DNA of 64,000 nucleotides from Galbibacter orientalis DSM 19592 (GTDB lineage: Bacteria > Bacteroidota > Bacteroidia > Flavobacteriales > Flavobacteriaceae): the NCBI RefSeq assembly GCF_000260115.1, contig NZ_JH651379.1, forward strand, positions 248,001 through 312,000. Reading direction: 5' to 3'. The notes below the pieces were generated by a model. It did no database searches. It was not told where the DNA came from and was given only the letters and a program-made list of their open reading frames with translations. The translations under genes and the position numbers were made by a program. Each line of letters opens with the position of its first letter. The first letter of the stretch is position 1. Positions 6,559 to 19,779 of this stretch are shown one piece after another.

Positions 6559-7773
6559 TCAAAAGTTTATAACACTATCCAATGCATCATCTGCCTCTTT
6601 ATGGATGAAATTGGCTTGATAGTTCAAGGTGGTTTTCAAATCACTATGGCGATATAATTTCTGTAGCATTAACGGATGAATGGCATCCCCAGCAATATTT
6701 CCAAAACTATGCCGTGCTATGTGCATCGTTATTTTCTTATTTATTTTAGCCTTTTTAGAGATTGATTTTAGATTGTCATTAAACCTCTTTGTAGCAGTTT
6801 TTCTCTTGTTATATAAATCTTTCGCATTTTCAGGGTCTGCCTTTTTCAATTCAGGGAAAACAAAATCATCATCACTTCTTTTATCATCTTTATATTGGTC
6901 TAAAATCTTTAGTACTTTTTCAGGAATTTTTAATGATAGAAGTTTTGCGTTTTTATGCATTCTATAATGCAGCCTGTTATCATAAATATCTGACCATTTG
7001 GTTCGTAGAACATCAGAAACCCTCATACCAGCAAAATTGAAACTAAAAAGCCAAACATTTCTAGTATGTATTTCAGAAGGTTTGAGATTTATCAAATTTT
7101 CAATTTGTTGAATCTCTAAAATATTTAGTCCGACTTTGGTAGTTTCAGGAAATTTGATTTTTATTTTATCGCCACCGAAGGGATATAATTCTCTGCTTAC
7201 AATTTTGTATTTAATTGCTCTGTTAAATAATAGCCTTACAAATACCAAAATGTTCATTATTGAGGTTTCAGACAGGGAGTACTTAACTTTTAAAGTTAAC
7301 ATCAATTTTTTAAGAAAACGTTCATCAATTTCTTGAAAAGACAATTGTTTCGAATTGTGATATTTTATAATAAAGCTCAACCACGCTTTATCAGTAGATA
7401 AACGATTTAGCTTTTCTGTACTTTCTAAATCGTCAAGATGTTCTTGTGCTAATTCAAAGAATGTAGCATTGATACCGGAGGAATATATTTCCTTCTTAAT
7501 TTGATTGGCAGAAGCATCTTTTTGTTCGGATTGAAGCGTAATAAGAGCATTGTTTAATTCAGAAAGTTTCAAGGATAACAAATTGTTCAAGGTTTTGAAA
7601 TTTATGTGTGATTTCTTAACCCGAATATTCTTTTCATCCCAATCTTCCAATTCAATGTAGTGACCTATATATTGGTATGTTGAGCGACGATTTTTTGTAA
7701 TACGTATGGCAAGAGGATACAAGCCTTCTTTATTAGGCTTTTTGCGAAGAACTATTTTAGCGTTTGATGACAT
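6559..7773 (-). CDS. Tyrosine recombinase, integrase A
   Basis: A site-specific recombinase of 404 residues of the Bacteroidota type: an N-terminal arm-binding domain (about 1-90), a SAM-like core-binding domain (about 100-200) and the catalytic domain. Catalytic residues are Arg251 (GMRVSD), His351 and Arg354 (HIARHSF), His376 (YRHSDLKTT) and Tyr385. I chose the ATG at 7773; an in-frame TTG ten codons upstream is also open. Its 5' end faces the tRNA-Leu fragment, with two 20-nt repeats between, as expected for an integrase that recombines at that tRNA gene. The last 17 codons have a close relic copy at 41865-41914. Confidence 0.92.
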   Translation of the reverse strand: MSSNAKIVLRKKPNKEGLYPLAIRITKNRRSTYQYIGHYIELEDWDEKNIRVKKSHINFKTLNNLLSLKLSELNNALITLQSEQKDASANQIKKEIYSSGINATFFELAQEHLDDLESTEKLNRLSTDKAWLSFIIKYHNSKQLSFQEIDERFLKKLMLTLKVKYSLSETSIMNILVFVRLLFNRAIKYKIVSRELYPFGGDKIKIKFPETTKVGLNILEIQQIENLINLKPSEIHTRNVWLFSFNFAGMRVSDVLRTKWSDIYDNRLHYRMHKNAKLLSLKIPEKVLKILDQYKDDKRSDDDFVFPELKKADPENAKDLYNKRKTATKRFNDNLKSISKKAKINKKITMHIARHSFGNIAGDAIHPLMLQKLYRHSDLKTTLNYQANFIHKEADDALDSVINF

Positions 7774-7807
7774 AATTGACCTAGTTTTGCGTACGAAAGC
7801 CAAATCA

Positions 7808-7912
7808 GGTACAACATAGGTACAACATTCAATTTTGAATGTTTAGTTTACCAAGAAGTTTTCCTAAAGATACAAATTTATTAGTTTCTCTGGGTACAAC
7901 ATAGGTACAACA
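7808..7912 (+). repeat. Two identical 20-nt repeats between integrase A and the tRNA fragment
   Basis: GGTACAACATAGGTACAACA occurs exactly at 7808-7827 and 7893-7912. Each copy is itself a tandem pair of GGTACAACA. The position beside the attachment site suggests arm-type binding sites for integrase A; this role is inferred. Confidence 0.6.
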
Positions 7913-8010
7913 AATATTGAAATCAATTGATATTAGATGATATCAAAGAAAATGACATATTATATAATCAATTGAAAATGAGTGGCTTTGGTGCTGTTTG
8001 GGCAAATGTA

Positions 8011-8069
8011 CGCTAGACTTAGGATCTAGTGCCGCAAGGTGTGAAGGTTCGAGTCCTTTCACCCGCACA
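8011..8069 (+). pseudogene. 3' fragment of tRNA-Leu(TAG), junction of elements A and B
   Basis: The anticodon stem-loop (CTAGA, loop CTTAGGA with anticodon TAG at 8020-8022, TCTAG), variable arm, T arm and 3' acceptor strand CACCCGC are present. The 5' acceptor strand that should read GCGGGTG is absent, and the D-arm region before 8011 is not recognisable. The fragment is therefore an attachment-site remnant, not a working tRNA. The intact gene is expected left of the window. Confidence 0.75.
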
Positions 8070-8073
8070 CACT

Positions 8074-8117
8074 AAAAAGCCTTTTTAATTGTAAATCAAT
8101 TAATTAGGCTTTTTTTA
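8074..8117 (+). terminator. Hairpin after the tRNA-Leu fragment
   Basis: AAAAAGCC (8074-8081) pairs with GGCTTTTT (8107-8114), followed by more Ts. It probably served as a terminator for the tRNA in the attachment site. Confidence 0.6.
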
Positions 8118-8126
8118 TTTTTGTTC

Positions 8127-8144
8127 TAGTCAACATTTAGTCAA
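8127..8144 (+). repeat. 18-nt end repeat of element B, left copy
   Basis: TAGTCAACATTTAGTCAA is identical to 19329-19346 near the other end of the element. It contains two copies of TAGTCAA and lies about 60 bases inside the attachment core. Likely an arm-type site for integrase B. Confidence 0.6.
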
Positions 8145-8154
8145 TAAAACAAAA

Positions 8155-8176
8155 AAACCTCTAAAAAAGAGGTTTT
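8155..8176 (-). terminator. Terminator downstream of the element B lipoprotein gene
   Basis: AAAACCTC and GAGGTTTT form an eight-pair stem around a six-base loop, with a T run when read on the minus strand. Confidence 0.6.
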
Positions 8177-8200
8177 GAGCTTCAAATGTTTTTAAACGTT

Positions 8201-8623
8201 TTATCTTACAAATACGTAATGTAGTTCTGACCCATTAGACACATCTAAAACCATGTCAATTTCATTTTCATTGACAATAGTAATATCATAATTAGTAAAA
8301 AACTCAGAAGTAACATAATCTACCTCATTTAAGATAATCTTATTTTCTTCAATCACGTAATCTGTTGCCTTAAAAGTTTGTGCTTCGCACGGCTCACTTG
8401 TTGAAAAAGATAAATACATGTTAATACTATTCTCGTTAATCGCTAGGCTGTTTGTTGTCAAGCAATCGTAGTCCGAGTAAGAATCACCGTTTATTTCAAA
8501 AGTCTGTAACTGATAGGATCCTTTAATAGTATCTTTTGATATACCAGGCTCTCCAGAATCATCATCCGAACTACATGAAACAAAAAAAAGAATGGCTGCT
8601 ACAAATAATAATTTTCTCATCAT
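8201..8623 (-). CDS. Lipoprotein, lipocalin-like, cargo of element B
   Basis: A 140-residue predicted lipoprotein. A hydrophobic signal of about 15 residues ends at the lipobox Cys in FFVSC, followed by Ser-Ser-Asp-Asp-Asp, which in Bacteroidota acts as an export signal to the cell surface. The rest is a small beta-rich domain starting with GSYQLQTFEING, similar in style to the lipocalin-like domains of many phylum lipoproteins; that fold is a guess. It lies at the attL end, after the tape measure gene and separated from it by about 90 bases. A lipoprotein at the end of a phage element is a common place for cargo, such as a superinfection-exclusion or surface-changing protein; no function is shown here. 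Confidence 0.75.
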   Translation of the reverse strand: MMRKLLFVAAILFFVSCSSDDDSGEPGISKDTIKGSYQLQTFEINGDSYSDYDCLTTNSLAINENSINMYLSFSTSEPCEAQTFKATDYVIEENKIILNEVDYVTSEFFTNYDITIVNENEIDMVLDVSNGSELHYVFVR

Positions 8624-8713
8624 TGGTTGTTTTTAAGTTTCTCTAAAGTTATAAATATAACTATTCACAACATTACGGAAAACCTCATTGTCTTTTGCCC
8701 TAAGTTCGGATGT

Positions 8714-11700
8714 TTATCCTTGTGCTTGAATTTGTAATAAACCACTTTCAATACCAGCCATGCGTCCGTCTATACTTTCTAAATAAGGCAAGTAGTTGGT
8801 TACCCCTTGTGAAATCGTAGCTAAGTATTGGCTATTTTGTGTAGCAATAGAAATACCACTAGCAACGTCTAAACGTATAGCGTTTAACGTTCCCTGAAGT
8901 ATATTGGCTGTATCTTCTGTGATGGTAGATATTGCGCCTGAAAGTCCTGTTTTTTGAGTTCCTTGACCTCCTAAACCATCCATTCCTAAGCCTTCCAAAA
9001 CCTCATTAATCGCTTCAATATCACTTTGAGCGCCGTTAATGATTGAATTATAAAGCGAGCGTAAAGAAGCTATCTCCGCAGGCGTGTATTCGCTGTCGCT
9101 TCCAGCTTTTGCAAATTCATCATAAAAGCCTCCAATAGCATCATCTAAAAATTTAACCTCAAAAGCTTGCAGCATTGCATCTTGCATTAAATCTTTGAAG
9201 TCATTAGCAAAGTCTGCTGCCGACTTTTTACCTTCCTTGAATCCAGAAATAATGCTGTCAACAATGGTAGTTTGTGTGGTTGCAGTAAACAGTTCATTAA
9301 GCTCTTCTTGAAATTCTACTACAGCTCTTTTTGCTTCCTCTAATTCTTTCTCCAAAGCATCAAGTTTGGCTTGGTCTGTGCCAGAACCTCTCCCTTTATT
9401 TGCAACTGTAATACCAAGGTATTTGATATCTTTTCTAGCATCACCCTCCGCCTTTATAGCCTCATTAAGTTCTTCTTGGAGTTCTTTTTGTTTCTCAATA
9501 GCACTTATTCTATTGTCAATCCTATCCTCTCCTACGCTTTTAGATATAGCATAATCAAGTTTCTCAATAGTTTTATTTAAATCCTTAATCGCTTTTTCAA
9601 ACTTTCCAGTATCAGAGCTTATTCCAGATTTAAAAACTGCATTTAAAGCCTGCAATCCACCTTGAACCATTTGGCCCGGATTACCAGAAAATAAATTCCC
9701 TGCTGCTGTTCCTAATTCAGATAAAACTCCTAAAGCTTCACTTATGCCTTCAGGTGCACCAAAGGTTTCAAGTAGTTTTTGAGCCTCTCCAATGGATGCT
9801 GTAACTTGACCAAAAACCTCAACAATCTTATCTGAGGTATTTTCAGATATAGCATCAATTTGGTTCATTATTAATTCAGTAGCCTTCTTGCTCTCTTCTG
9901 AACCATCATTATAAAGATCTAGTGTTTTTTTCCACTTATCTTTTTCCTCTTTAAGTTCTTTAAGACTTAGATCTCTTAACTCATAATTAAATTCTTTCTT
10001 AAGTTTTTCAAGGTCATTATATCCATTTTGAGCGACTTTAAGCTTTTTTTTCCAAATATCAAGATACTCTCTTATCTGCCCTCTATCATTTTCATTAGCA
10101 GCATCAAATTTGGCTTTTAAATCACGAATGGTAGCTTCTATAAAGTTTATAGAAGTAGTATCTACTGTGAAATCAAATTCTAGGTTTACTTTTTGATTTG
10201 TGATTGTATTAACTTCACTTACATTAGGTGTGTTTTTACCGCCTACATCACCAGTAGGTTTAAAAACAAACTCTAACACTTTTTTTCGTTCCTCAGCAGC
10301 TTTCTTTATTTGCTCGTTTTCAGATTCTAAATACTTAGCTAACGAATTTGGATTAGCTTTATACTCTTCTTTTGTAAGGTCTTTAATTTCGCCTAGTGCT
10401 GTCAAAACAACCTTTCTCGCTTCAATAGCATCTTTAATACCTTGAAATGAAAACTTTTCGTCAAATTCCGCTAAACCTTCAAGCGAATTTACTTTTTCGA
10501 CTTGCTTAACGATTTCTTTATATCCTTCTGCATTGTCATAGAGTTTGACCGTGAATTTATCCAAGCTTATTTGGTTTTCTTCTACGACATCCTTCGCTTT
10601 TTCTAACTGGTAATAGAATGTGCTTACTGCTTTTTCTGCTTGAAACAATGGAACAACAAAATCCTGATACGCTCCATCAACTCCACTAAATGCGCTTTCT
10701 ATTTTACTGTAAATGTCGTCTGGGTCATCATTTACCGATATAGGTATCTCAATACCGTTCTTTTCCGCAAACGCCAACGCCTTACCTACTAAGGTTTCAA
10801 AATCTGCTAACTCTCTTTGATATATAGCGTCTAACTCATTTCTCGTAGCTTCTGCCTCAGATACTTGCTGTTGAAGTCCTGCAACTGCTACACTTTTGTT
10901 TTTAAGGTTTTGTATCTGCTCTAAGACACCTCGAACACCTTCTAGGGTTTCTTTTAAATTATCGTTCTTAACTTTATCTAAATCTAAACTCGATAGGTAT
11001 TCTGGATATTCGTTTTTAAGCTGCGTTAATATTTCAAGCTTCTTATCAAATTCAACATTAGAATCATATAAAGAGGCTATTAAGTTTCTATATTCACTAG
11101 CTTGTTTTGCTACTTCATCCGTTAAATCCTCGGTACTTCCAATAGCATCATTCATTAAACCAACTACCGCATTTGAAAACCTTAAAAGGCTTTCTCCAAT
11201 ACCTTGCGTACTAGCCTTAATTCTATTGGTAAAGATGCTCCATTGATTGGCATTGGTACCGGTAACTTTAGAGAACGATCTGTCAACACTTCCAGCGGCA
11301 TCACTCATTGCGTTTAAGTCTTCAACCGCTCCTTCCATATTAGGTCCAGCAATTGAAAGAATGCCATTAACAGCCTCTACCCTTCCCGCCATCTCTTTTA
11401 ATTTGGTCTGGCTGCCATCTGCTGCCTTGTACATTTCGTTAAATGCATCTTGAAGAGATAAGGTTTCAAAAACACCATCTCCCATTACCTCGGTTGTAGA
11501 GACTATAGCGGAACGTATTTGCGTCATTGCCTGTCCGGCTGGCACCCCTTGTTTGGTCAATGTAGAAATTGCGGCTCCAATTTCTTGGAATGATATATTA
11601 CTTGCCGCTGCAATTGGTGCTACTTGTGCTATTTGGCTTGAAAGTTCTTCAAAGGATATCTTACCACGGTCGACGGTGGCAAACATTACATCTGCTACCT

Positions 11701-12199
11701 CCTGAGCATCTTCTGTTTGTAATTGGAAGGCATTTAAAATGGTAGTAAGTCCATCGGCTGCAACTTCTGTAGTTGTGATACCTGCGGTAGCGGCTTTGGA
11801 TGCTATTTCTAAAACGTCTAAAGCTTCAGCAGCATCATATCCAGCACCTATAATCTCATACAGTCCTTTCGCTAACTTATCAGGCGGTTCAGTTCCTAAT
11901 CGCTTATAAATATCAAAAAGCCTTTGCTCTAGCCCTCTCATTTCTTTTTCACTCACATTAGCGATGGTGCTTACCTCAGCCATTGCAGACTCAAAGCTTT
12001 TAGCCATGTCGTAGGCTTCTTTGGATATAGCTGTAAGCGCAGCAACTGCTACAGCAGAAAAAGCTATAAAAGGATTTATTTTAGTAATCTTGCTAGCCAT
12101 TTGACCAACAATATTAACCGCTTGATTTGCGCTTTGTTGAAGCCCTGAGTTGTCTATCTCGGGTTTAAAATATAAAGAGTTTTCGCCACGTATTGCCAT
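8714..12199 (-). CDS. Phage tail tape measure protein
   Basis: Tape measure proteins set tail length and fill the tail tube. This one has 1161 residues. Residues about 60-280 match the TP901-type core (AMAEVSTIANVSEKEMRGLE, a string of Ala/Gly-rich helices, then GVPAGQAMTQIRSAI). Long helical and coiled-coil stretches follow. The C-terminal third (from about 800) is Gly/Ala-rich and then helical. If the family rule of about 1.5 angstrom of tail per residue applies, the tail would be near 170 nm. It directly follows the gp10-like gene (18-base gap). What is odd is what is missing: no tube, tail chaperone, distal tail or baseplate gene lies on either side. Confidence 0.9.
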   Translation of the reverse strand: MAIRGENSLYFKPEIDNSGLQQSANQAVNIVGQMASKITKINPFIAFSAVAVAALTAISKEAYDMAKSFESAMAEVSTIANVSEKEMRGLEQRLFDIYKRLGTEPPDKLAKGLYEIIGAGYDAAEALDVLEIASKAATAGITTTEVAADGLTTILNAFQLQTEDAQEVADVMFATVDRGKISFEELSSQIAQVAPIAAASNISFQEIGAAISTLTKQGVPAGQAMTQIRSAIVSTTEVMGDGVFETLSLQDAFNEMYKAADGSQTKLKEMAGRVEAVNGILSIAGPNMEGAVEDLNAMSDAAGSVDRSFSKVTGTNANQWSIFTNRIKASTQGIGESLLRFSNAVVGLMNDAIGSTEDLTDEVAKQASEYRNLIASLYDSNVEFDKKLEILTQLKNEYPEYLSSLDLDKVKNDNLKETLEGVRGVLEQIQNLKNKSVAVAGLQQQVSEAEATRNELDAIYQRELADFETLVGKALAFAEKNGIEIPISVNDDPDDIYSKIESAFSGVDGAYQDFVVPLFQAEKAVSTFYYQLEKAKDVVEENQISLDKFTVKLYDNAEGYKEIVKQVEKVNSLEGLAEFDEKFSFQGIKDAIEARKVVLTALGEIKDLTKEEYKANPNSLAKYLESENEQIKKAAEERKKVLEFVFKPTGDVGGKNTPNVSEVNTITNQKVNLEFDFTVDTTSINFIEATIRDLKAKFDAANENDRGQIREYLDIWKKKLKVAQNGYNDLEKLKKEFNYELRDLSLKELKEEKDKWKKTLDLYNDGSEESKKATELIMNQIDAISENTSDKIVEVFGQVTASIGEAQKLLETFGAPEGISEALGVLSELGTAAGNLFSGNPGQMVQGGLQALNAVFKSGISSDTGKFEKAIKDLNKTIEKLDYAISKSVGEDRIDNRISAIEKQKELQEELNEAIKAEGDARKDIKYLGITVANKGRGSGTDQAKLDALEKELEEAKRAVVEFQEELNELFTATTQTTIVDSIISGFKEGKKSAADFANDFKDLMQDAMLQAFEVKFLDDAIGGFYDEFAKAGSDSEYTPAEIASLRSLYNSIINGAQSDIEAINEVLEGLGMDGLGGQGTQKTGLSGAISTITEDTANILQGTLNAIRLDVASGISIATQNSQYLATISQGVTNYLPYLESIDGRMAGIESGLLQIQAQG

Positions 12200-12217
12200 T
12201 TCGAATAATAGTTGTTA

Positions 12218-12670
12218 TCATGTATAATTAATCTTGCTTAAAAGCTGCTTTAATAACTGTTCTGTTTCCGTTCCTGCCCCAGTTATTACATCAAAGTTTT
12301 TAGCTTCGACCGCCGCGGCGTACTCCATTCCCGCTACTCCGATTAGCATTAACCCTCTAGGGTTCTCGCTCGCTAATCTTTCTGCAAACTCTTTAGCTTT
12401 TTTAACACCCTCTTCTCCCTTACCGTCATAAGTCTCAAACCTTTCACCGAGTATCTGACCGTCTTTAATTACCATGTAGCCAATAGAACTTCTAAGGTTT
12501 CCCGTTTGATCTTTATATCTACCTGTTAGACGTGCTTTATTTACAAATTCATTTCCCGCATACAAAAGAGATTCTTCTATCTGCCATTCAATACGATCCT
12601 TCCAGATTTCAAATGCTTTCTCAACTGTATTTCTTGTAAATAAGGCTTTAAGACCTCCTCCTCTTTTCAT
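12218..12670 (-). CDS. HK97-gp10-like tail/neck protein
   Basis: A 150-residue protein of the type placed between head completion and tail genes in siphophages. The characteristic segments are a helical N-terminus, RLTGRYKDQTGNLRSSIGY in the middle, and VAGMEYAAAVEAKNFDVI near the end. Family members take part in closing the head or terminating the tail. The gene begins after a 418-base non-coding gap, with a near-consensus minus-strand promoter about 30-55 bases upstream of its start (CAAATTA at 12697-12703 and CAA at 12722-12724, read on the other strand as TAATTTG and TTG). It forms an operon with the tape measure gene. Confidence 0.8.
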   Translation of the reverse strand: MKRGGGLKALFTRNTVEKAFEIWKDRIEWQIEESLLYAGNEFVNKARLTGRYKDQTGNLRSSIGYMVIKDGQILGERFETYDGKGEEGVKKAKEFAERLASENPRGLMLIGVAGMEYAAAVEAKNFDVITGAGTETEQLLKQLLSKINYT

Positions 12671-12872
12671 AATAAGAGCGTTAGTTTGTTCTATTGCAAA
12701 TTAGTTGAAGTGAGTGTTTTACAATAGTTTTACGATGTAGTAATTCCGTAGTGGCGTTATCATTTTACCTCATCACACTTATAAGATTTAATACGAAAAT
12801 GGATAAGTAAATTTTGCTGGAGACTACAAAGAAGTAACTCAATAAAAGGAATCACTCAAAAAGTAATCAAAT

Positions 12873-12902
12873 TTGAAGCTGGGTGTTAATGAAGTATCTT
12901 TG
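12873..12902 (+). promoter_or_regulatory. Consensus Bacteroidota promoter on the plus strand
   Basis: TTG at 12873-12875, a 19-base spacer and TATCTTTG at 12895-12902 match the TTG-N19-TAnnTTTG pattern exactly. It points away from the gp10 gene and against the direction of all genes in the element. Confidence 0.65.
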
Positions 12903-12906
12903 CGAA

Positions 12907-13069
12907 ATGAACAAAGCTTTGTGTATTATATTACTCAACAGGTTAATTCTTAATCCATTTCAACATAGCTAAATACATGAAAAAATTGTATCTTTGAATA
13001 GATAAAGCGTTGCCAAATTGCTTTACATTCGAATAAAATAAAAAGGGGCTTGAACAACCCCTTTTTTTT
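12907..13069 (+). ncRNA. Candidate small RNA of element B, possibly with a 21-residue leaderless peptide
   Basis: A consensus promoter ends at 12902 and a GC-rich hairpin with a T run ends near 13069, giving a transcript of roughly 160 bases. A second TATCTTTG box at 12989 could give a shorter form of about 70 bases. An ATG at 12907 opens a 21-codon frame (to 12972) rich in Leu and Ile (ALCIILLNRLIL), which would be nearly leaderless. An RNA regulator, a tiny membrane peptide or neither are all possible; only the signals are seen. Confidence 0.4.
13041..13069. terminator. Bidirectional terminator after the packaging operon
   Basis: AAAAGGGG (13041-13048) pairs with CCCCTTTT (13058-13065), with T runs on both strands. 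On the minus strand it lies just after the last coiled-coil gene (stop at 13089); on the plus strand it would end the candidate small RNA. Confidence 0.75.
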
Positions 13070-13088
13070 ATGCTTATTATTTAGGCTA

Positions 13089-13364
13089 TCATTTTAACCT
13101 TGTTGCCACATCTGCTATATCTCTTTCTGGTGGTCCACTCAAATTACGGATAATATTTTCCTCGCTATCGATATAGCTTTTCAGTTTTATAATCTCATCA
13201 TTTACCACTCTTCTAGCTTGATTATCCTCATAAGTATCTCTTGGTATAAAATGCAGCGTATGTTTAGCATGTAATATCTCATTTTCTAAAGCTTTAACTG
13301 TTTCTTTACGTTTACTTATTTCAGCATTTGCCTCTGACTGTAATTCTAATTTTGATTTATTCAT
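13089..13364 (-). CDS. Small coiled-coil protein of element B (91 aa)
   Basis: I do not recognise a family. The protein is almost entirely charged helix (Lys, Glu and Arg heptad-like pattern from residue 5 to about 70), with no membrane segment. I prefer the ATG at 13364, which has the A/T-rich leader usual in this phylum. An upstream in-frame ATG at 13388 overlaps the end of the previous gene by 13 bases and would add eight residues. It is the last gene of the run that holds the small terminase and is followed by the terminator at 13041-13069. In a phage this place often holds scaffold or head-assembly genes, but nothing in the sequence proves such a role. Confidence 0.6.
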   Translation of the reverse strand: MNKSKLELQSEANAEISKRKETVKALENEILHAKHTLHFIPRDTYEDNQARRVVNDEIIKLKSYIDSEENIIRNLSGPPERDIADVATRLK

Positions 13365-13375
13365 CTTTATAAATT

Positions 13376-13693
13376 TTAATGATTCCATTGTTTCATAACC
13401 TCAGCGATAGCATCATCACTTACTATTACGTTTCTCTCTTCGGTTTCCATTGCTTCAAGCTCCTTATTGAGTTGGTTTCTTTTTTGCAGCAAATTGTTAA
13501 TGCGTGCTTTTTTTTCTACAGATACACTTCTGTCAGCGTATTCACTATTTAATTCCGCTTTTACGGAATTAATTTCCGTTTGCTTACTCGCTATCTTTTT
13601 ACTGTAGCTTTCAAGTGTGCTAATTCGCTCTTTCACTTGGTCTTCGTACTTAGATTTAATTACCTCGTACGCTGGTGTTAATATAATGTCCAT
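13376..13693 (-). CDS. Small coiled-coil protein of element B (105 aa)
   Basis: Not recognised. It begins MDIILTPAYEVIK, followed by a long charged coiled coil (about residues 12-90) and a short acidic end. There are no Cys clusters, signal peptide or membrane helix. It lies between a 71-residue gene and a second coiled-coil gene, and the two coiled-coil genes nearly overlap, so they are probably translated together and may form one complex. A scaffold, a regulator of the helper phage or a packaging partner of the small terminase are possibilities from position alone. Confidence 0.6.
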   Translation of the reverse strand: MDIILTPAYEVIKSKYEDQVKERISTLESYSKKIASKQTEINSVKAELNSEYADRSVSVEKKARINNLLQKRNQLNKELEAMETEERNVIVSDDAIAEVMKQWNH

Positions 13694-13729
13694 TGTAGTT
13701 GAATTTATGCCCTATAGGGCTGTTAATAA

Positions 13730-13945
13730 TTAATTATTTACTTTTTGGTATGCTTGAAGTAAATCCTCTTCTACTTCTTTAGGCATATCTGCCGTCCATA
13801 ATCTAGGAGGAGTTATTCCTGATTCTGTCATTGTTTTCTTAGATTCAAAGCGATGAGACATCCAGTCTATTGTATCTTTTTTTAAATGTGGATACATAAG
13901 CTTGACAGCCTTAGTCATCTTGATAAACATTAAAGGTGATATCAT
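13730..13945 (-). CDS. Small protein of element B (71 aa), unknown
   Basis: Not recognised. The product is a short helical protein with a basic N-terminal half (MTKAVKLMYPHLKKDTIDWMSH) and a Pro-containing middle (TPPRLWTADMP). The first ATG is at 13945; a second Met at residue 10 would also make a sensible start. It sits 11 bases after the stop of the small terminase gene on the same strand. A DNA-binding or terminase-partner role is only suggested by context. Confidence 0.5.
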   Translation of the reverse strand: MISPLMFIKMTKAVKLMYPHLKKDTIDWMSHRFESKKTMTESGITPPRLWTADMPKEVEEDLLQAYQKVNN

Positions 13946-13956
13946 TTCTCAATCAT

Positions 13957-14361
13957 TTAAATTTCTCCTCTTCCATTATCTGGAATCTGAAATATTACTA
14001 CGTTATCTATTTTCTTTTGATTATTGTCCTTCTCATAGAATCCTAGCATTTTGTTTTGCTCTTTAATAGCTGCAATGGCATCACTGTATTTGCTTTCTTT
14101 CTTTGATTCTACTTTGATATCCTCCAAATCTTGAAGTTGGTTCTCAAACGTAACATCAAGCTTTTGTGACACTTCTGACACTTTAGTTTGAACATACTCT
14201 CTTATCCGTAGATTTCCGTAGATTTTTCTAAACCCAATATCAGCGGCGTTAGCGTTGGCTTTTGGGTATACTGCTTGATACGCTTTAGTTCCATTACGGC
14301 CATTGACAAACCACTCATCAATAACTGTTTTGTATTTAATAAAAGTTTTATCTGTCATCAC
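13957..14361 (-). CDS. Small terminase subunit (TerS-like)
   Basis: Small terminases recognise the packaging site and load the large-subunit motor. The N-terminal 60 residues show the usual helix-turn-helix pattern (ID.WFVNGRNGTKAYQAVYP, then a second helix pair around NLRIREYV). A coiled oligomerisation region follows (about 65-115), then a short tail. At 134 residues the length fits. The start overlaps the stop of the upstream gene (ATG within the last bases at 14361). No large terminase follows, which is the pattern of phage satellites that redirect a helper's motor to their own DNA. The family call is good; the redirecting role is inference. Confidence 0.75.
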   Translation of the reverse strand: MMTDKTFIKYKTVIDEWFVNGRNGTKAYQAVYPKANANAADIGFRKIYGNLRIREYVQTKVSEVSQKLDVTFENQLQDLEDIKVESKKESKYSDAIAAIKEQNKMLGFYEKDNNQKKIDNVVIFQIPDNGRGEI

Positions 14362-14597
14362 TACTTGAATTCAGCACAACTAAAACCGTTTTTAGTTGTT
14401 ATTTTTACTGTGTCATAGACTTTCTTTTCGCCTGAGGCTATCCCCTCCAGGGTCTCTCTAATCTTATGATATAGTTCAATTTCTTTTTCAGTTCTAGGCC
14501 TTTCATTTACCCACGCATCAAATGGTTTCGCCTTTTGTAATTCAGCTATTGCCCATCGTCTGGTTTTTTCCTGTTTATTTAAAGCCGCTTTACTCAT
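14361..14597 (-). CDS. Small basic protein of element B (78 aa)
   Basis: Not recognised. It is a soluble, helical, charged protein (NKQEKTRRWAIAELQKAKPF near the start, a Glu-rich middle, and a single Cys near the end). It overlaps the upstream gene by eight bases and touches the small terminase start, so the three are translationally coupled. Being locked between two packaging-type genes suggests a role in DNA recognition or packaging, but no motif shows it. Confidence 0.55.
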   Translation of the reverse strand: MSKAALNKQEKTRRWAIAELQKAKPFDAWVNERPRTEKEIELYHKIRETLEGIASGEKKVYDTVKITTKNGFSCAEFK

Positions 14598-14913
14598 TAC
14601 TCATCATTTTCCGTTGAAGCTCTTTAATGCGTTCGTCTCGCTCTTCTGGCGTCATTTTAACAACCTTACCACCTAACTCTATTTCTGTACGTTGAAGTTT
14701 AGGTATTACAAAGTCTGAGAGTTTAATAATAATATTAATCGCTTTCTCTGGATTCTCTTTAGCGACCTCATCAAGCCATTTCGATAGATCTGGTAGCTTA
14801 TCGCTAACTAATTGATGAAATGCTTGTCTTATTTCTTTTGTGTTCTTATTTGGCACTCCTTTTCTACTTGACTTTTTGCCTAGCTCTGAGGCTTTTTCTT
14901 TAGTTAGGTTCAT
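14590..14913 (-). CDS. Phage packaging-type protein (DUF5681-like)
   Basis: A 107-residue protein starting with a basic segment (SELGKKSSRKGVPNKNTKEIR) of the Gly-Arg-Pro-Lys-Gly-Ala-x-Asn-Lys type. This segment is common in short phage proteins encoded just before terminase genes in Bacteroidota. A helical stretch with SDFVIPKLQRTE follows. It opens the operon that contains the small terminase and lies downstream of the iteron-like repeats at 15017-15125. It may be a DNA-binding packaging factor. The family assignment rests on the basic motif and position and is moderate. Confidence 0.6.
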   Translation of the reverse strand: MNLTKEKASELGKKSSRKGVPNKNTKEIRQAFHQLVSDKLPDLSKWLDEVAKENPEKAINIIIKLSDFVIPKLQRTEIELGGKVVKMTPEERDERIKELQRKMMSNE

Positions 14914-15016
14914 TTTGTTTGTTTTACGTTATTTTATTGTTAGTTTAACAGAGTACATTCAAAATTTTTAAAAGTTGGTGAGCGAAGAAATCACTCTCTC
15001 AACATCTTTTTAAAAA

Positions 15017-15125
15017 ACCTTTCTATAGTACCTTTATATATTACCTTTCTATAGGTGTCGTACTTTTGTAGAAAAATATTAGAGTAAAAAAACAATTATG
15101 AAGTACCCTTTTATATAGGTGTCGT
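15017..15125. repeat. Iteron-like repeats between the replication-type and packaging genes
   Basis: A short motif recurs: ACCTTTCTATAG (15017-15028), ACCTTTATATA (15030-15040), ACCTTTCTATAGGTGTCGT (15043-15061) and ACCCTTTTATATAGGTGTCGT (15105-15125). TATAGGTGTCGT is exact in the last two. They lie in a 245-base gap after the gene ending at 15159 and 104 bases or more before the start at 14913. They could be a replication origin bound by an element-encoded initiator, or operators for the packaging operon. Confidence 0.5.
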
Positions 15126-15158
15126 TATGATGCTGTTATGAGGTTTTCATGATGTTGT

Positions 15159-15854
15159 TCACGGGGGCTCGTTTTTTATTCTGTCTAAAACTCTATTTAA
15201 GGCCACTTTTTCCTCAAACTTTTTCTGCTTTATCAATGTAGATTTTCGCTTCTTCTCAGCTTGGTAAATCAACTCTTCTAGAGAAAGCTTAAATGATACA
15301 TAAAAACCTCGTGTAAATCGAGAATAATGCGTTAAACCCCAGTTAATGATTAGCTCATCTTTAATTTTTGTTAGCTGCCAACGATTTGCGTATTTCTTAA
15401 CCTCATCAGACAGCTCATCATTTTCTGAAACCGACTTTACACGGCCATCCATTCGAGACAACCAAAAGCGGTTAGTGACTTTGCAATAGGTTTTGTTTTG
15501 AACAATTGATTTAATAGCTAGAAACCCTAATAAACTTATCTTCTCAAAGTCGGTTTTATGATCACCATAATATTCAAAAAACACACTCGTATTAATGCCA
15601 ACTTTAGGACTGTTATTTGGCGTGCACTCGTATAGCTTAGACCCATTATTATAACTTTTTTCATTATCCCTTATGACAACACCAAAGTATTTTTGTGCGG
15701 CTTTAAATCGCGCTGTATGTCCGCCGTGTTGGAGTTTCAAATAATGCTCATAGATTGCGTAATCGGAAATGTCATCTAATGATTTTTTGCTATTCCTCAT
15801 AAACCCTCGTAGCATCCAAATAGGGAAATTAAAATATCTCTCATCTCCACTCAT
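15159..15854 (-). CDS. Conserved-type unknown protein of element B, possibly replication or regulation (231 aa)
   Basis: No firm family. The N-terminal half reads like the winged-helix or initiator-type proteins found in Bacteroidota mobile elements (FNFPIWMLRGFM, DYAIYEHYLKL, AAQKYFGV). A middle helical region follows, and the last 40 residues are a basic coiled coil (AEKKRKSTLIKQKKFEEKVA). It overlaps the upstream winged-helix-like gene by four bases (ATGA), so the two products are probably made together. The iteron-like repeats lie immediately downstream, which is why a role in replication initiation is attractive. No Walker or primase motif is visible. Confidence 0.55.
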   Translation of the reverse strand: MSGDERYFNFPIWMLRGFMRNSKKSLDDISDYAIYEHYLKLQHGGHTARFKAAQKYFGVVIRDNEKSYNNGSKLYECTPNNSPKVGINTSVFFEYYGDHKTDFEKISLLGFLAIKSIVQNKTYCKVTNRFWLSRMDGRVKSVSENDELSDEVKKYANRWQLTKIKDELIINWGLTHYSRFTRGFYVSFKLSLEELIYQAEKKRKSTLIKQKKFEEKVALNRVLDRIKNEPP

Positions 15855-16156
15855 ACACTATGCTCTTCGTTTACAAATGAATTATAGTCTTTTATGTAGC
15901 AATACTTCACTTTATAGCCTGTCTGAATACTGGGCTTAATAACAAACGACAAAACCCCTTCATTTAATAAATCGTACACAGCTCGTGTAACACTCCCCAT
16001 TTCCATGCCAGTAATAGCACTAAAACTCCTATTATTGAGCGGCATATTGTTGTTTTGAATTAAAGCCTGTATGATTTTACCTTTTGCGGTTTTTCGTTTC
16101 TTAGAAGCCACGTATTGCTTCCATGCTAAACTTTTGGTATTTCTTTGCGTTGCCAT
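15851..16156 (-). CDS. Winged-helix-like DNA-binding protein (101 aa)
   Basis: A small basic protein. After a Lys/Arg-rich start, residues about 25-90 show a helix, helix, recognition helix and beta-wing order (GKIIQALIQNN, NRSFSAITGMEMGSVTRAVYDLLNEGVL, then YKVKYCYI), as in small winged-helix regulators and replication accessory proteins. It lies 12 bases after the excisionase-like gene and overlaps the next gene by four bases, forming one operon. A regulator or replication protein is likely; which of the two cannot be decided from sequence alone. Confidence 0.6.
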   Translation of the reverse strand: MATQRNTKSLAWKQYVASKKRKTAKGKIIQALIQNNNMPLNNRSFSAITGMEMGSVTRAVYDLLNEGVLSFVIKPSIQTGYKVKYCYIKDYNSFVNEEHSV

Positions 16157-16168
16157 GATACCAATTGT

Positions 16169-16432
16169 TTAAAGTTCAACAATTGCGCTTTCGACTTGTG
16201 ATCGCTTATAATAAATTCTCGATCCGATGGAATGAGCTTTAAGTATTCCCCGCTTAGTCCAATTATGAACTGTCGAAATATCAATTTTAAGCATTTCAGA
16301 AACCTCTGTTCTCGTTAAATATTCTGGAGGATCTTTTGGTTGTAGATTTTTTTGAAGTTCCCCTAACTTAAATTTTATCCTTTCTATGTCGTTTTTAACA
16401 CAGTCTGGCAAATCAATTTGTATTACATTCAT
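16169..16432 (-). CDS. Excisionase-like helix-turn-helix protein
   Basis: An 87-residue protein whose C-terminal 50 residues are a MerR/excisionase-type helix-turn-helix (EYLTRTEVSEMLKIDISTVH, then WTKRGILKAHSIGSRIYYKR). The short N-terminal helix may be for dimerisation. I chose the ATG at 16432, giving MNVIQIDLP; an in-frame ATG nine codons upstream lies in a poorly supported leader. Excisionases bend DNA at attachment sites and steer the integrase toward excision. Position in the early region of the element, in the same direction as the integrase, fits this role. Confidence 0.8.
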   Translation of the reverse strand: MNVIQIDLPDCVKNDIERIKFKLGELQKNLQPKDPPEYLTRTEVSEMLKIDISTVHNWTKRGILKAHSIGSRIYYKRSQVESAIVEL

Positions 16433-16516
16433 GACACTTGTTTTTAAATTCAAGTGCAATTAAGTGTAGGGTGTATCTGTGTGTAGAAAGTGTGTAAATA
16501 TAACTTTACACTATTT

Positions 16517-17251
16517 TTATTTATTTAAACTGTCTAAGTAGTTTTTTACTATGTCTGAATTGGGCTTTCCTTGATATTTCCCATTCATTAAATGCCTTGC
16601 GTTGGTTTCATTAATATCAAGTATTAGAGCGAGTAGTTTATATTTCTCAGTCTCAGATATATTGAGTTTTCTTATTTTAGATTCAATGTCAAAAAGTTTT
16701 TTAGCCACCTCAAACCTATCGTTTAAATTTAGTCTCTTACCTTCTATTAATAGGCTTTTGGACTTATTTTCTTTAACGCCATTTTTTACACTCTCACTGC
16801 TCCCTAACTCAATCTCTTTAATTTTATTTATTATTATAGATCTAAACTCTCTTAATCCATAAAACTCAAAAGGAAACATTATTGCTTCTATATCAATTAC
16901 TGGACTCAACTCTCCAATTGACTTTTCCAGCTTTTTCCTCTTTGATTTTTGCTCAATTGATAAATCTTTACGCTGAGTTCTTTTGAGCATAGGAATTTTT
17001 AACCCACTAATTTCATAAGATTTAAGCTGAATATCTAATTGAGTAGGATCAAGATTTGAAATCATTTCCTCTAACTCAATATTTATGTAAAGGTTTAAAT
17101 CTGACAACAAAGCCTTCATAAAGTCTAAATCAAAACCATTTGTTCTTTGATTTAGTAGATTCAAAAAGTCAAACTTTCCGTAATTATCATAATTCCTAAT
17201 ATCGTCAAACAAATCAAAAGATTTATTAAGTACACTTTTATGGTTTTCCAT
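16517..17251 (-). CDS. Unknown mobile-element protein with C-terminal HTH-like segment (244 aa)
   Basis: I do not recognise a named family. The protein is soluble and mostly helical. The last 70 residues (NLNDRFEVAKKLFDIESKIRK, then EKYKLLALILDINETNARHL and a Gly-Lys turn) look like a helix-turn-helix module, and similar ends occur in Bacteroidota integrative-element proteins. The N-terminal half has no clear motif. It is separated from the upstream gene by a terminator-like hairpin (17289-17313), so it may have its own promoter. It could be the element's regulator. Confidence 0.55.
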   Translation of the reverse strand: MENHKSVLNKSFDLFDDIRNYDNYGKFDFLNLLNQRTNGFDLDFMKALLSDLNLYINIELEEMISNLDPTQLDIQLKSYEISGLKIPMLKRTQRKDLSIEQKSKRKKLEKSIGELSPVIDIEAIMFPFEFYGLREFRSIIINKIKEIELGSSESVKNGVKENKSKSLLIEGKRLNLNDRFEVAKKLFDIESKIRKLNISETEKYKLLALILDINETNARHLMNGKYQGKPNSDIVKNYLDSLNK

Positions 17252-17288
17252 TCGAACAAATTTTAAACGTTGCCAATATAAATATATA

Positions 17289-17313
17289 AAACCCCTTGAA
17301 TTAAAGAGGTTTT
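17289..17313 (-). terminator. Hairpin between two early genes of element B
   Basis: AAACCCCTT pairs with AAGAGGTTT (17289-17297 and 17304-17312, one mismatch). On the minus strand it follows the gene that ends at 17346. Confidence 0.45.
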
Positions 17314-17345
17314 ATATCAATATCTTCAGTATAACAAGCATTGAA

Positions 17346-17981
17346 TTAAGCACTTAACTTATTAACATTAAAGTTGTTAATAACATTGTTTAGTCTTTCA
17401 AACATTTTCTTACCGTCACTCTCTTGAGTAAATATATCAAAGAAATCCTCGGTTAAATCTTCTATTATAAAAGCACCTCTCTCATGGCTTATTATTTCCT
17501 CAACCTTTTCCGGGTTAATTAAATAAGCAATACTGAATACTGGAGTATTCATACCGTCTCCGTGCAAAACAAGTGTTATTTCAAAAGCAATGCTAGTTAT
17601 GTGTGTAACTTCAAGTATTTTATATAGGTCACTATTCACAGACTCCTTATTTTTAATATCGCTTTCTACAACATCTAACGCATATAAAACCTCTTTTTTC
17701 ATGTTTTTATCATGAGCAGCTGGCGCAATACCCTTTATGATATTCAACCTTTCCTCAGAAACATTCGTTTCTTTTCCATCTAGCAACAAAATTGATTTTA
17801 ATGCATTGCTTAATAATTCGTCATCTATATCTAAATCTAGATACTTACCTATTGGTTCAGACTTAAATTTTTTATAATTAGATATTAATACATCAATTTC
17901 TGCAATGTATTTCAGTAAATCAATTCTAAGGTCATTTTTACTAATCATGAAATTACTTTGTGTACTGTTAATTGTTTTCAT
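17346..17981 (-). CDS. Unknown protein next to integrase B (211 aa)
   Basis: No family recognised. It is soluble, with a helical N-terminal half and a mixed C-terminal half (HITSIAFEITLVLHGDG, FSIAYLINPEKVEEII). No signal peptide, membrane helix or catalytic motif stands out. It starts 16 bases after the stop of integrase B and is probably cotranscribed with it. In satellites and phages this place often holds the repressor or a control gene, but no DNA-binding motif is visible. It could also be a defence or anti-helper protein. Confidence 0.55.
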   Translation of the reverse strand: MKTINSTQSNFMISKNDLRIDLLKYIAEIDVLISNYKKFKSEPIGKYLDLDIDDELLSNALKSILLLDGKETNVSEERLNIIKGIAPAAHDKNMKKEVLYALDVVESDIKNKESVNSDLYKILEVTHITSIAFEITLVLHGDGMNTPVFSIAYLINPEKVEEIISHERGAFIIEDLTEDFFDIFTQESDGKKMFERLNNVINNFNVNKLSA

Positions 17982-17997
17982 TATATAAAGTTTTAAA

Positions 17998-19293
17998 TTA
18001 ATTATTAGATACGTTTTTAATTACATTTAGCTGAGGTTCTTTTTTCTCCTTAATTGCTTGTTTTGTGTAGAAATCTGCTATTTGTTGCGCATAATCATAA
18101 GAAGATTTGCCTATATATCCCATGAAGGTTTTTTCTGTAGCGTGTGCCGTTATTTGCATTATTAAAGGCGTTGGAAGTTCACCATACAAATTTGTGGCAA
18201 ATGAACGTCTACAAACATGACTGGTTATTAATTCCCATTTCTCAAATGTTCCGCTTTCATTTCTTTTTGTCTCTGAATTAATTTTAGTGCCTTGAGTCAA
18301 CTCATTTAATTTAGCTTCTTTGCAAAGGATTTTTAAATACTTATTAAATTTCTGAGTAGAAATCTTATAAGGCATTCCATCATTCAAAATCTCTTTTGTT
18401 TTTGGCAATACTGGAATCGTTACTGTTTTGCCTGTTTTTTGTTGCTTTAACTCTATTACTTCTAAACCATTACGGAAAACAAAATTGTCGTTATTTATAC
18501 TCAATAAGTCGCCGCCCCTTTGCCCAATGTTACAGCCCAATAAAAGCCATTTACGGACATTTTTTAGCGAATCAGTTGAAAGATTAGTATTCTCTATTTT
18601 TTTAAGCTCTGCAGGCGTTAAATAAATAATAGACTCATTTTTAACTTTAAAACCAGTAACTTTCTTTATTTGCTTGCTTACTTCTACTCCATTCATTTCG
18701 GCATCTAGACAAATTGTTTTCAAGTTACCAAGCATACGCCCTGCATATCCCTTTGAATAATCTTTAACTCCAACCATCCAGTTAATAAATTGGTCTCTAA
18801 ACTTAATATCTATATCTTTTATCTGAAGAATGCCTTTTCCTTGAAAACTCTCGATAATACTCGATAGGCTTTTAAAGTCATTTATACGGCTTTGAGACAA
18901 ACCAACTCCGCCCTTAGCATTTCTTTTAATACTAGCGTTCGATATATAATGAGCTATGTAGCCAATAACAGTATTTAACTCATTATCGTTTTTATCTTGA
19001 TTAAAATGTTTAGATATAGTTTTTTCCAACCACAAACCATTTATAAGAACACCTTGTGCGAAATCCTTATTAAAGGAATCTATAATGTGCCCTTCTAACT
19101 TTTGAAGAGTAGATTTTAACTTTTTATTCTCCGGACCATTAGATTTAGGAAAACCAGTTTTTTTACTCCAATTATTTGAGTCAACAACTAATCCTGTTTT
19201 CTTTTTTGCAGATTTATGCCTTGCAATCGATAGCCTTGCATATATTGATGAGGTAGGTGATTCACTTTGTATTAAAAACTTAACCGTTGCCAT
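17998..19293 (-). CDS. Tyrosine recombinase, integrase B
   Basis: A site-specific recombinase of 431 residues from the ATG at 19293; an upstream Met adds 15 residues and is less likely. It has an arm-binding N-terminus, a core-binding domain (about 105-205) and a catalytic domain with Arg259 (IGQRGGD), His359 and Arg362 (SHVCRRSF), His384 (TAHATEKT) and Tyr393 (MGYIG). Its 5' end faces the right attachment core at 19479-19502, with the 18-nt repeat at 19329-19346 between. It is only distantly related to integrase A, and its repeats are different, so the two elements probably recombine independently at the same tRNA. Confidence 0.93.
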   Translation of the reverse strand: MATVKFLIQSESPTSSIYARLSIARHKSAKKKTGLVVDSNNWSKKTGFPKSNGPENKKLKSTLQKLEGHIIDSFNKDFAQGVLINGLWLEKTISKHFNQDKNDNELNTVIGYIAHYISNASIKRNAKGGVGLSQSRINDFKSLSSIIESFQGKGILQIKDIDIKFRDQFINWMVGVKDYSKGYAGRMLGNLKTICLDAEMNGVEVSKQIKKVTGFKVKNESIIYLTPAELKKIENTNLSTDSLKNVRKWLLLGCNIGQRGGDLLSINNDNFVFRNGLEVIELKQQKTGKTVTIPVLPKTKEILNDGMPYKISTQKFNKYLKILCKEAKLNELTQGTKINSETKRNESGTFEKWELITSHVCRRSFATNLYGELPTPLIMQITAHATEKTFMGYIGKSSYDYAQQIADFYTKQAIKEKKEPQLNVIKNVSNN

Positions 19294-19328
19294 ATTTTGA
19301 ACATTTGAACAGTCAAATATAATTAAAT

Positions 19329-19346
19329 TAGTCAACATTTAGTCAA
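19329..19346 (+). repeat. 18-nt end repeat of element B, right copy
   Basis: Identical to 8127-8144 (TAGTCAACATTTAGTCAA), continued by another CATTTA. It lies between the integrase start and the attachment core, the usual place for integrase arm sites. Confidence 0.6.
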
Positions 19347-19478
19347 CATTTACACTATTTATTTCGATAAATTTCAATATTATTCAATATAAAAACATGA
19401 TTAAATTCGCCAAAAACCCTTTAAAATTAGCACTTTACCCAGCATTTACAGTAGTCGATAATAATTCATTAATTGAAG

Positions 19479-19502
19479 GGTTCGACTCCTTTCACCCGCA
19501 CA
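19479..19502 (+). repeat. Right attachment core of element B (tRNA-Leu 3' end)
   Basis: Bases GGTTCGACTCC, then the acceptor strand ending CACCCGCACA, match 8046-8069 at 23 of 24 positions. The sequence upstream of it is unrelated to tRNA. This defines the right junction of the element. Confidence 0.75.
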
Positions 19503-19533: not shown

Positions 19534-19779
19534 TGCACTATAGTTAAGTACAAGAAACCGGATCATTCCCAATTGTTGGGATCATTCCCAAAAGTTGTGT
19601 TTATGCAAAGTTCCACAAAAAAAACCTTCTTCTTAAGAATCTCCTATACTTTTATATTTTCAACCCTTTGTGCTAAAAAAAAGATATTGACTATTAACAA
19701 CCTCTATTCCCTTTAAATCTTAACAAACAATAGGTATAGCATATTTTGACTATATTTAAGACAACCAAAACCTTTTTAT

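Follow-up and report, generated by a model that had tools for sequence, protein, structure and literature searches.

Why would an integrated element of about 11.4 kb carry a gene for a phage tail tape measure protein (TMP) when no capsid, packaging motor or tail tube can be credibly recognised beside it? The question is raised by positions 8046-19502 of the analysed window, a stretch of 64,000 nucleotides from Galbibacter orientalis DSM 19592 (contig NZ_JH651379.1, positions 248,001 to 312,000). A preliminary description of this DNA had proposed a phage satellite. This study puts the probability at roughly two in three that the element is a satellite which replaces the TMP of its helper phage with its own, giving chimeric tails. 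The satellite interpretation is backed by a junction that is unchanged in a second copy of the element (the IMG/VR contig L009), by 27 loci of its replication-initiator family, among which no complete phage showed within the parts examined, and by the recurrence of TMP genes in that family.

The integrated element is intact, and its 15 called genes are all open and all lie on the minus strand, in agreement with the preliminary description. The features are as follows.

8046-8069, no strand: left attachment core, within what remains here of the native tRNA-Leu(tag), a 60-nt 3' fragment at 8010-8069; 23 of 24 positions equal to 19479-19502
8127-8144, no strand: 18-nt repeat TAGTCAACATTTAGTCAA, just inside the left end, with an exact copy at 19329-19346, just inside the right
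8201-8623, minus: lipocalin-like small lipoprotein, an accessory gene (Pfam Lipocalin_4 4.7e-4, just under the cut-off)
8714-12199, minus: TMP, 1161 aa (phrog_991 6.6e-44, PF10145 5.5e-25)
12218-12670, minus: neck or tail-completion (HK97 gp10-like) protein, 150 aa (phrog_5377, of unknown function, 1.9e-40)
12671-13088, no strand: non-coding gap of 418 nt, with a terminator-like hairpin near 13040-13070
13089-13388, minus: coiled-coil-like protein, 99 aa (cc99); no PHROG below 0.035; L009 protein identical
13376-13693, minus: coiled-coil protein, 105 aa; weak matches, mostly to coiled-coil families; L009 protein identical
13730-13945, minus: 71-aa protein with no family match in PHROGs or Pfam
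13957-14361, minus: terminase small subunit (TerS), 134 aa (phrog_51 1.4e-5; Pfam Terminase_2 under the cut-off)
14361-14597, minus: 78-aa protein; a relative was found only in L009
14590-14913, minus: another small-terminase-like protein, of 107 aa; its family, p107, is represented in 7 of 27 loci
15016-15125, minus: probable origin, with two ACGACACCTATA boxes 64 nt apart and CTATAGAAAGGT repeats 26 nt apart
15159-15854, minus: replication-initiator-like protein, 231 aa, the marker of the 27-member family
15851-16156, minus: regulator-like protein, 101 aa (phrog_142 Ren-like 2.1e-4, MarR-like 1.8e-3)
16169-16459, minus: excisionase (Xis) or MerR-type HTH protein (HTH_17 2.3e-11, phrog_66 excisionase 1.6e-9)
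16517-17251, minus: 244-aa protein, the C-terminal part of which differs in L009
17346-17981, minus: 211-aa protein, 81% identical to that of L009; no convincing family match in PHROGs or Pfam
17998-19338, minus: tyrosine integrase (PF00589 1.8e-8, phrog_1 4.4e-19)
19329-19357, no strand: putative arm-type repeats at the right end, the TAGTCAACATTTAGTCAA copy at 19329-19346 and a third, partial copy from 19340
19479-19502, no strand: right attachment core, equal to the left core at 23 of 24 positions

The ends were found much as first described: the attachment cores match at all but one position and the 18-nt repeats exactly, and the latter look like integrase arm-type sites. In each of the three same-genus genomes examined, tRNA-Leu(tag) directly abuts a terminator like the one that follows position 19502, and the integration site is uninterrupted, as befits site-specific integration of a discrete element. 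The right flank is common to these relatives for only about 60 bp, because the next host gene (19780) sits elsewhere in their genomes. The tRNA-Leu placed at 7982-8068 by the preliminary description is incomplete: its match to the native tRNA-Leu(tag) is confined to the 60 nt at the 3' end, and the call scored 25.9 bits in Rfam, under the gathering score of 29.

The annotation of the integrase, excisionase-like, TerS, gp10-like and tape measure genes was supported by PHROGs and Pfam matches. Among the 15 element proteins, the same scans gave no match to TerL (the terminase large subunit), portal, tail-tube or tail-tip families, and the only capsid-type match was a weak one (phrog_10 major head protein, 4.8e-4) to a coiled coil. 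Capsid and motor genes are therefore missing as far as these scans can recognise them credibly, and the complete head, motor and tail modules of a prophage were not found, so that the element would need a helper. An additional search with PF05065 was negative in all seven records searched, including L009, L120, L121 and L122; since it also missed the capsid gene of the phage contig L010, it carries no weight on capsids. No match to the element was obtained in a plasmid collection by megablast.

Virion genes of the element have homologues in phage contigs. The TMP is 51% identical over its full length to that of L010, a contig that has a major head protein, and the gp10-like protein is 53% identical to its L010 counterpart; the window protein also matches phrog_5 (tail completion) at 1.3e-3 and HK97-gp10_like under the cut-off, and its AlphaFold model (pLDDT, the predicted confidence score, 76.7) gave no useful PDB match. 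TerS is 53% identical to a protein of phage contig L087, the gene of which directly precedes that of a large terminase (phrog_979 3.2e-33).

Comparison with L009, a contig of 12,333 bp, indicates which part of the element is mobile as a whole. The two cores are 97.4% identical over 7,543 bp and 92.9% over 1,209 bp, whereas the integrases are only 30% and the Xis proteins 54% identical, and the gene after TMP, in the position of the lipoprotein gene, is an unrelated one of 118 aa. A 16-bp end repeat peculiar to L009 stands at 420-435 and recurs where the contig ends, so the right flank of L009 is unseen. The same core with another integrase, Xis, cargo and end repeat argues that the core moves as a unit. 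The junction between cc99 and gp10 is the same in both copies, 418 nt long in L009 (7355-7772) with no open reading frame (ORF) of at least 60 aa. The preliminary description had named terL, portal, capsid and tail genes between 12670 and 13089 in relatives as the mark of a deleted prophage; no insertion of terL, portal or capsid genes was found at this junction in L009, the one close relative found. The non-coding RNA that had been suggested for 12671-13088 found no support, having no Rfam match and a fold z of -1.9, with 3 of 100 shuffles equally stable.

The ratio of non-synonymous to synonymous rates (dN/dS) between the window and L009 is 0.16 for TMP (94.5 synonymous and 61.5 non-synonymous changes), 0.05 for gp10 and 0.18 for rep; TMP and gp10 are under purifying selection. 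When compared with viral contigs, the window initiator used alone found L009 only, the window TMP likewise found only the L009 record, and a TMP scan of genome contigs returned 0 relatives. A 31-bp dispersed sequence occurs at window 19579-19609 and in the L009 flank (91-121); among the matches listed from 40 relatives searched it is confined to this genus, and the host of L009 is therefore probably near kin.

To place the element more widely, its 231-aa initiator-like protein serves as the family marker. Neither PHROGs (below E 0.07) nor Pfam recognises this protein, and a search of 50,697 phage records with a limit of E 0.01 found nothing like it. Its predicted fold is confident (pLDDT 93.5); the best viral structural match of the model is a phage replication initiator (E 0.009), with none passing 1e-3. 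Against the PDB, subunits of the origin recognition complex lead the list, which also has 4pt7 'initiator' and 5kbj 'Rep-DNA complex' (E ~0.1), both of which we take to be RepA-type. The structural resemblance to initiators of phage and plasmid type is weak.

The initiator is rare, occurring in 3 of 299 Flavobacteriaceae genomes, own included. An alignment-based scan turned up 23 loci among species genomes and another 4 in IMG/VR, making 28 with the window. Clustering of the 28 loci grouped initiators from 27, Xis from 26 and integrases from 24; the family count of 27 leaves out L119, the initiator of which is cut at the locus end, and seven weak order-level matches (E 2e-5 to 1e-3) were also left out of the counts. 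The hosts are spread across Bacteroidota and include Flavobacteriaceae, Weeksellaceae, Chitinophagaceae, Cyclobacteriaceae, Prolixibacteraceae and Kapaibacterium. Eighteen loci entered a comparison of element ends, which produced 16 rows, L100 and L106 lacking an integrase side. An exact end repeat of 13-56 bp at the 3' end of a tRNA or tmRNA was present in 13 of these 16, bounding elements of 4.9-13.5 kb; the exceptions are L105 and L110, with a self-match only, and L112, the repeat of which lies outside its tRNA.

The 'iterons' reported earlier proved real and are located at 15016-15125, downstream of the initiator gene, in what is probably, to judge by its sequence, the replication origin. 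Counted on one strand of the 450 nt that follow the gene in each locus (12.7 kb in all), the box ACGAC(0-2)CTAT has 30 occurrences, whereas the remainder of these loci, 808 kb read on both strands, has 8. This enrichment is descriptive, because the motif was picked from those same regions. Boxes are present in 17 of the 27 loci (two boxes, 64-84 nt apart, in 13 and one in 4) and absent from 10, and in 8 of 15 such regions there are short repeats nearby with a spacing of 13 or 26 nt.

Packaging genes are frequent in the family. Of the 27 loci, 8 were found to have TerS and 7 a p107 member, so that at least 13 members, all seven TMP carriers included, have one or the other; the figure is a lower bound because the TerS search did not cover all of the genes that follow the initiator. 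The assignment of p107 to small terminases draws on the phage homologues of the L097 member, which lie directly before, and overlap, an annotated large terminase in both of the records inspected, out of three matched. A TerS search of 396 Flavobacteriaceae genomes gave matches in 9, own included, and the surroundings were read for G282. Further virion genes appear in L120 and L121, which add portal, MuF and TerL, and in L122, which adds MuF; no capsid, tube or tip was recognised in the whole L120 and L121 records, where 9 further proteins had no virion match. When 305 proteins from 26 loci were compared with the ORFs of 81 IMG/VR contigs, the only virion matches were to TerS, TerL, portal, MuF, gp10 and TMP. 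These contigs had been fetched for gp10 or TerS, with other phage types outside the comparison; L109 and L119 were left out, and for elements with no known att repeat the bounds were placed by eye.

A TMP is present in seven of the 27 loci: the window, L009, L097, L100, L120, L121 and L122. Those of L097 (Muricauda, 1.8e-104), L100 (Flavobacterium soyangense, 5.9e-65), L120 (2.9e-43), L121 (8e-48) and L122 (2.2e-41) were recognised by PHROGs, and that of L009 was entered by its 96% identity to the window TMP. Clustering separates three types, comprising the window with L009, L120, L121 and L122 (the last three 37-44% identical to the window TMP over its first 650-680 residues), L097 alone and L100 alone. 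The best phage match of the L097 protein is in Cellulophaga phage Nekkels (46%, 91% covered), that of the L100 protein in a Leeuwenhoekiella phage (37% over a third), and these different nearest phages suggest more than one capture; the L097 TMP had no match among viral contigs. On the rep tree the TMP label changes 4 times against a shuffled mean of 7.1, in a test that used 8 rows, with the doubtful L108 included, rather than 7. Among the TMP members, Muricauda sp. TY007 (L097) and Flavobacterium soyangense (L100) are cultured hosts, as is Mesoflavibacter zeaxanthinifaciens DSM 18436, host of L108, the member with a doubtful TMP.

Several other large proteins were weighed as candidate TMPs and discarded. 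Two of these, a 1027-aa protein in L101 and its partner of 778 aa in L114, were assigned to the host, because each lies outside the tRNA-Gln att site of its locus and the L101 protein has no PHROG match. The 1627-aa protein of L113 is a type IIG restriction enzyme. The 905-aa protein of L108 (phrog_21537 2.8e-15; TMP phrog_1538 only 8.2e-4) was not counted, nor was the 1194-aa phage virion protein of L118 (11677-15261), which matches phrog_14478 with 1197 bits.

How such an element might work can be outlined from its genes. Infection by a flavobacterial siphophage would lead to Int/Xis-dependent excision of the tRNA-integrated element, which would then replicate with its own initiator from its own origin. 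One or both satellite small terminases would mark satellite DNA and steer the helper motor onto it, filling helper capsids, with capsid, portal, motor, tail tube, tip and fibres all borrowed from the helper. Tails would be built on the satellite TMP, displacing that of the helper and becoming chimeric, and the gp10-like neck protein would probably displace the helper's and perhaps close the tail. The swap might make tail assembly specific to the satellite, evade inhibitors of tail assembly, alter DNA ejection or harm the helper. In this outline we infer excision, the identity of the helper, packaging, the entry of TMP into particles and the gain from the swap.

The alternative that survives best, unlikely as it is, makes the TMP a decoy weapon rather than a virion part: it would poison tail assembly of infecting phages and so protect the host. 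Phage-inducible chromosomal islands (PICIs) and P4-like satellites do carry tail-assembly inhibition (Tai, PMC11364771), the Rta protein of PLE11, a PICI-like element (PLE), appears aimed at the TMP of phage ICP1 (PMC12987554), and the family has other defence-type genes, such as the type IIG restriction enzyme of L113 and the type II methylase of L108. However, Rta is an 80-aa protein and not a full-length TMP (PMC12987554), whereas the window element and L009 retain the full TMP length, and the presence of a small terminase beside TMP in all seven members, with a neck protein in two, points to particle building.

A second alternative, which we consider quite improbable, is that of a remnant prophage: a siphophage that lost its head, motor and most tail genes and retained int, xis, TerS, gp10 and TMP. 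The 51-53% identity of TMP and gp10 to a real phage, L010, speaks for it; L120 and L121, with portal, MuF, TerS, TerL and TMP, could resemble intermediate decay, and the TMP of L131 appears broken. On the other hand, the junction is unchanged in L009 despite another integrase and other cargo, TMP and gp10 are under purifying selection, the initiator occurs in none of the 50,697 phage records, and a compact replicon is common to 27 loci. An origin by one-off prophage deletion is accordingly unlikely. That the element is an integrative mobilisable one, moved by conjugation with phage genes as captured passengers, is barely plausible: small size, tRNA integration, an own replicon and several members without recognised phage structural genes would suit it, but no relaxase or mobilisation family appears among the 15 proteins (general Pfam and PHROGs scans; oriT was not searched), and packaging is a likelier route than conjugation, given that at least 13 of 27 members carry a small-terminase-like gene.

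The preferred reading, a satellite that exchanges the tape measure, has its own weak points. Within the element, the absence of a tube or chaperone gene is not firm: PHROGs leaves the probable tube and chaperone genes of L010 unnamed, so a divergent one may escape, and the coiled-coil genes, among them the 99-aa protein read as coiled-coil-like both earlier and here, have no assigned role. In its own genome there is no PF04860 portal (the portal search being with this family only) and no second PF10145 TMP, and the helper is therefore expected to be an infecting or different phage. Within the family, TMP is a minority trait (7 of 27 loci), and L099, L103 and L107 (4.9-6.2 kb) have no recognised phage structural gene, which makes the family broader than a 'TMP satellite'. 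The large proteins of L118 (phrog_14478) and L108 (phrog_21537) belong to the PHROGs class head and packaging, which sits poorly with a lack of shell genes and also counts against the wider proposal made below. The TMP of L131 (IMG/VR) is split into two frames (9452-12616 and 12785-13435), representing either a broken gene or a sequencing error, and the integrase of L130 (IMG/VR, 15173-16444) lies at the far end from the initiator and is reversed, unlike in other members. The number of captures is uncertain, since the L097 and L100 TMPs share the same best PHROG (18891); the rep tree is poorly resolved, with 15 of 24 inner branches open, and leaves room for a single TMP gain.

Taken as a whole, the family is probably a phage-satellite lineage of Bacteroidota, some members of which have their own TMP. 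The virion proteins found, namely TerS, TerL, portal, MuF, neck protein and TMP, contact or guide DNA, and on this basis a wider proposal may be put forward tentatively, with the odds against it: that a phylum-wide satellite family, with a new initiator and origin at its base, collects virion proteins that contact or guide DNA and leaves the shells to the helper, thereby re-addressing genome loading and ejection, and has repeatedly captured TMPs, taken from various helper lineages, that suit various helpers.

Some other features of the family loci were recorded. L098, L099, L103, L107 and L116 are only 4.9-6.2 kb long, with integrase, initiator and few other genes, and are possible minimal forms of the family. 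A small protein, c3, is encoded near the initiator in 13 loci (e.g. L097 9516-9998); six of the 13 match a protein of phage contig L087 (1674-2105), and we presume that c3 proteins are VRR-NUC nucleases. Defence-type cargo comprises the L113 restriction enzyme (9546-14429) and the L108 methylase (15898-17220); of the neighbours of the latter, one has weaker PADLOC matches and the other none.

The satellite adjoins a second island and is not nested in it. The 5' half of the native tRNA-Leu(tag) lies at G000:C1:197804-197842, and the approximately 58 kb between the halves (C1:197804-256069) was taken as one putative second element. Its insertion, at a 15-bp core in the anticodon arm (ACGCTAGACTTAGGA), divided the native tRNA-Leu(tag); the island starts with a complete replacement tRNA-Leu(tag) and has its integrase at window 6559-7803. 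The nine island proteins scanned include metal or efflux transporters, namely an AcrB-type pump, P-type ATPases and a multicopper oxidase. Beside the second integrase are 20-nt repeats, GGTACAACATAGGTACAACA, at 7808-7827 and 7893-7912, which are likely to be its arm sites. A similar sequence, GTTGTACCTATGTTGTACCC, adjoins tRNA-Leu(tag) at locus L105 of Pricia antarctica.

No literature on phage satellites of Bacteroidota was found in a search that covered few subscription journals and part of the matches. The element is compared here with known systems. PICIs and P4-like satellites resemble it in size, in the int-xis-replication-TerS layout, in tRNA-type sites and in accessory or defence cargo. 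PICIs are recognised by int, a regulator or xis, a replication gene and TerS in this order at a specific att site, and by having no phage structural genes past packaging or capsid-redirecting ones; their derepression depends on a helper phage. The window element has this gene order at a specific att site, but it departs from a PICI in having TMP and a neck-like gene. It further differs from PICI and P4-like satellites in its initiator, which has no Pfam or PHROG match, in the presence of tail genes and in its phylum, Bacteroidota. Capsid-forming PICIs (cfPICIs) combine packaging genes with borrowed tails, and some have putative tmp genes (PMC12987554); they make their own capsid, for which no gene could be recognised among the 15 proteins of the window element.

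As regards tails, the modules of flavobacterial siphophages (L010 and Cellulophaga phage Nekkels) contain TMPs homologous to those of the family, with a gp10-like gene in L010. In L010, four ORFs (130, 183, 154 and 186 aa) separate gp10 and TMP, with a 789-aa tail protein after, the tube and chaperone labels being assigned by position; in the window element gp10 directly adjoins TMP. Charybdis elements are small and marine, and have been discussed as possible satellites that give tail parts and take the capsid from elsewhere (PMC12324425). They differ in having probable archaeal hosts and neither a terminase nor a recognisable replication gene (PMC12324425).

The nearest known counterparts are the PLEs of Vibrio cholerae (PLE1, PLE4 and PLE11), integrated elements that use their own TMP with the helper's other tail parts, as was shown in 2026 for PLE11 (PMC12987554). 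PLE11 TMP enters tails otherwise made of ICP1 parts, according to electron microscopy, western blot and mass spectrometry, and deletion of its tmp lowers transduction by roughly 99.9% (PMC12987554). The window element likewise has its own TMP, which is present and under selection and the use of which in tails we infer. The own tape measure, called unusual in the preliminary description, is real but has a precedent in PLEs (PMC12987554). Compared by description only, PLEs work with the contractile tail of ICP1 and have a tail assembly chaperone (TAC) and, in some, BhuB (PMC12987554), and that text contains no word starting with Flavobacter or Bacteroid. SviR is another PLE gene family. The window element differs in its TMP of flavobacterial-siphophage type, its neck-like and two small-terminase-like proteins, the lack of a recognised TAC and its Bacteroidota hosts. 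In the present lineage, which has a different replicon and belongs to a different phylum, the trait would recur with TMPs of siphophage type, possibly gained more than once; if this is true, tail re-tooling is a more general strategy of satellites.

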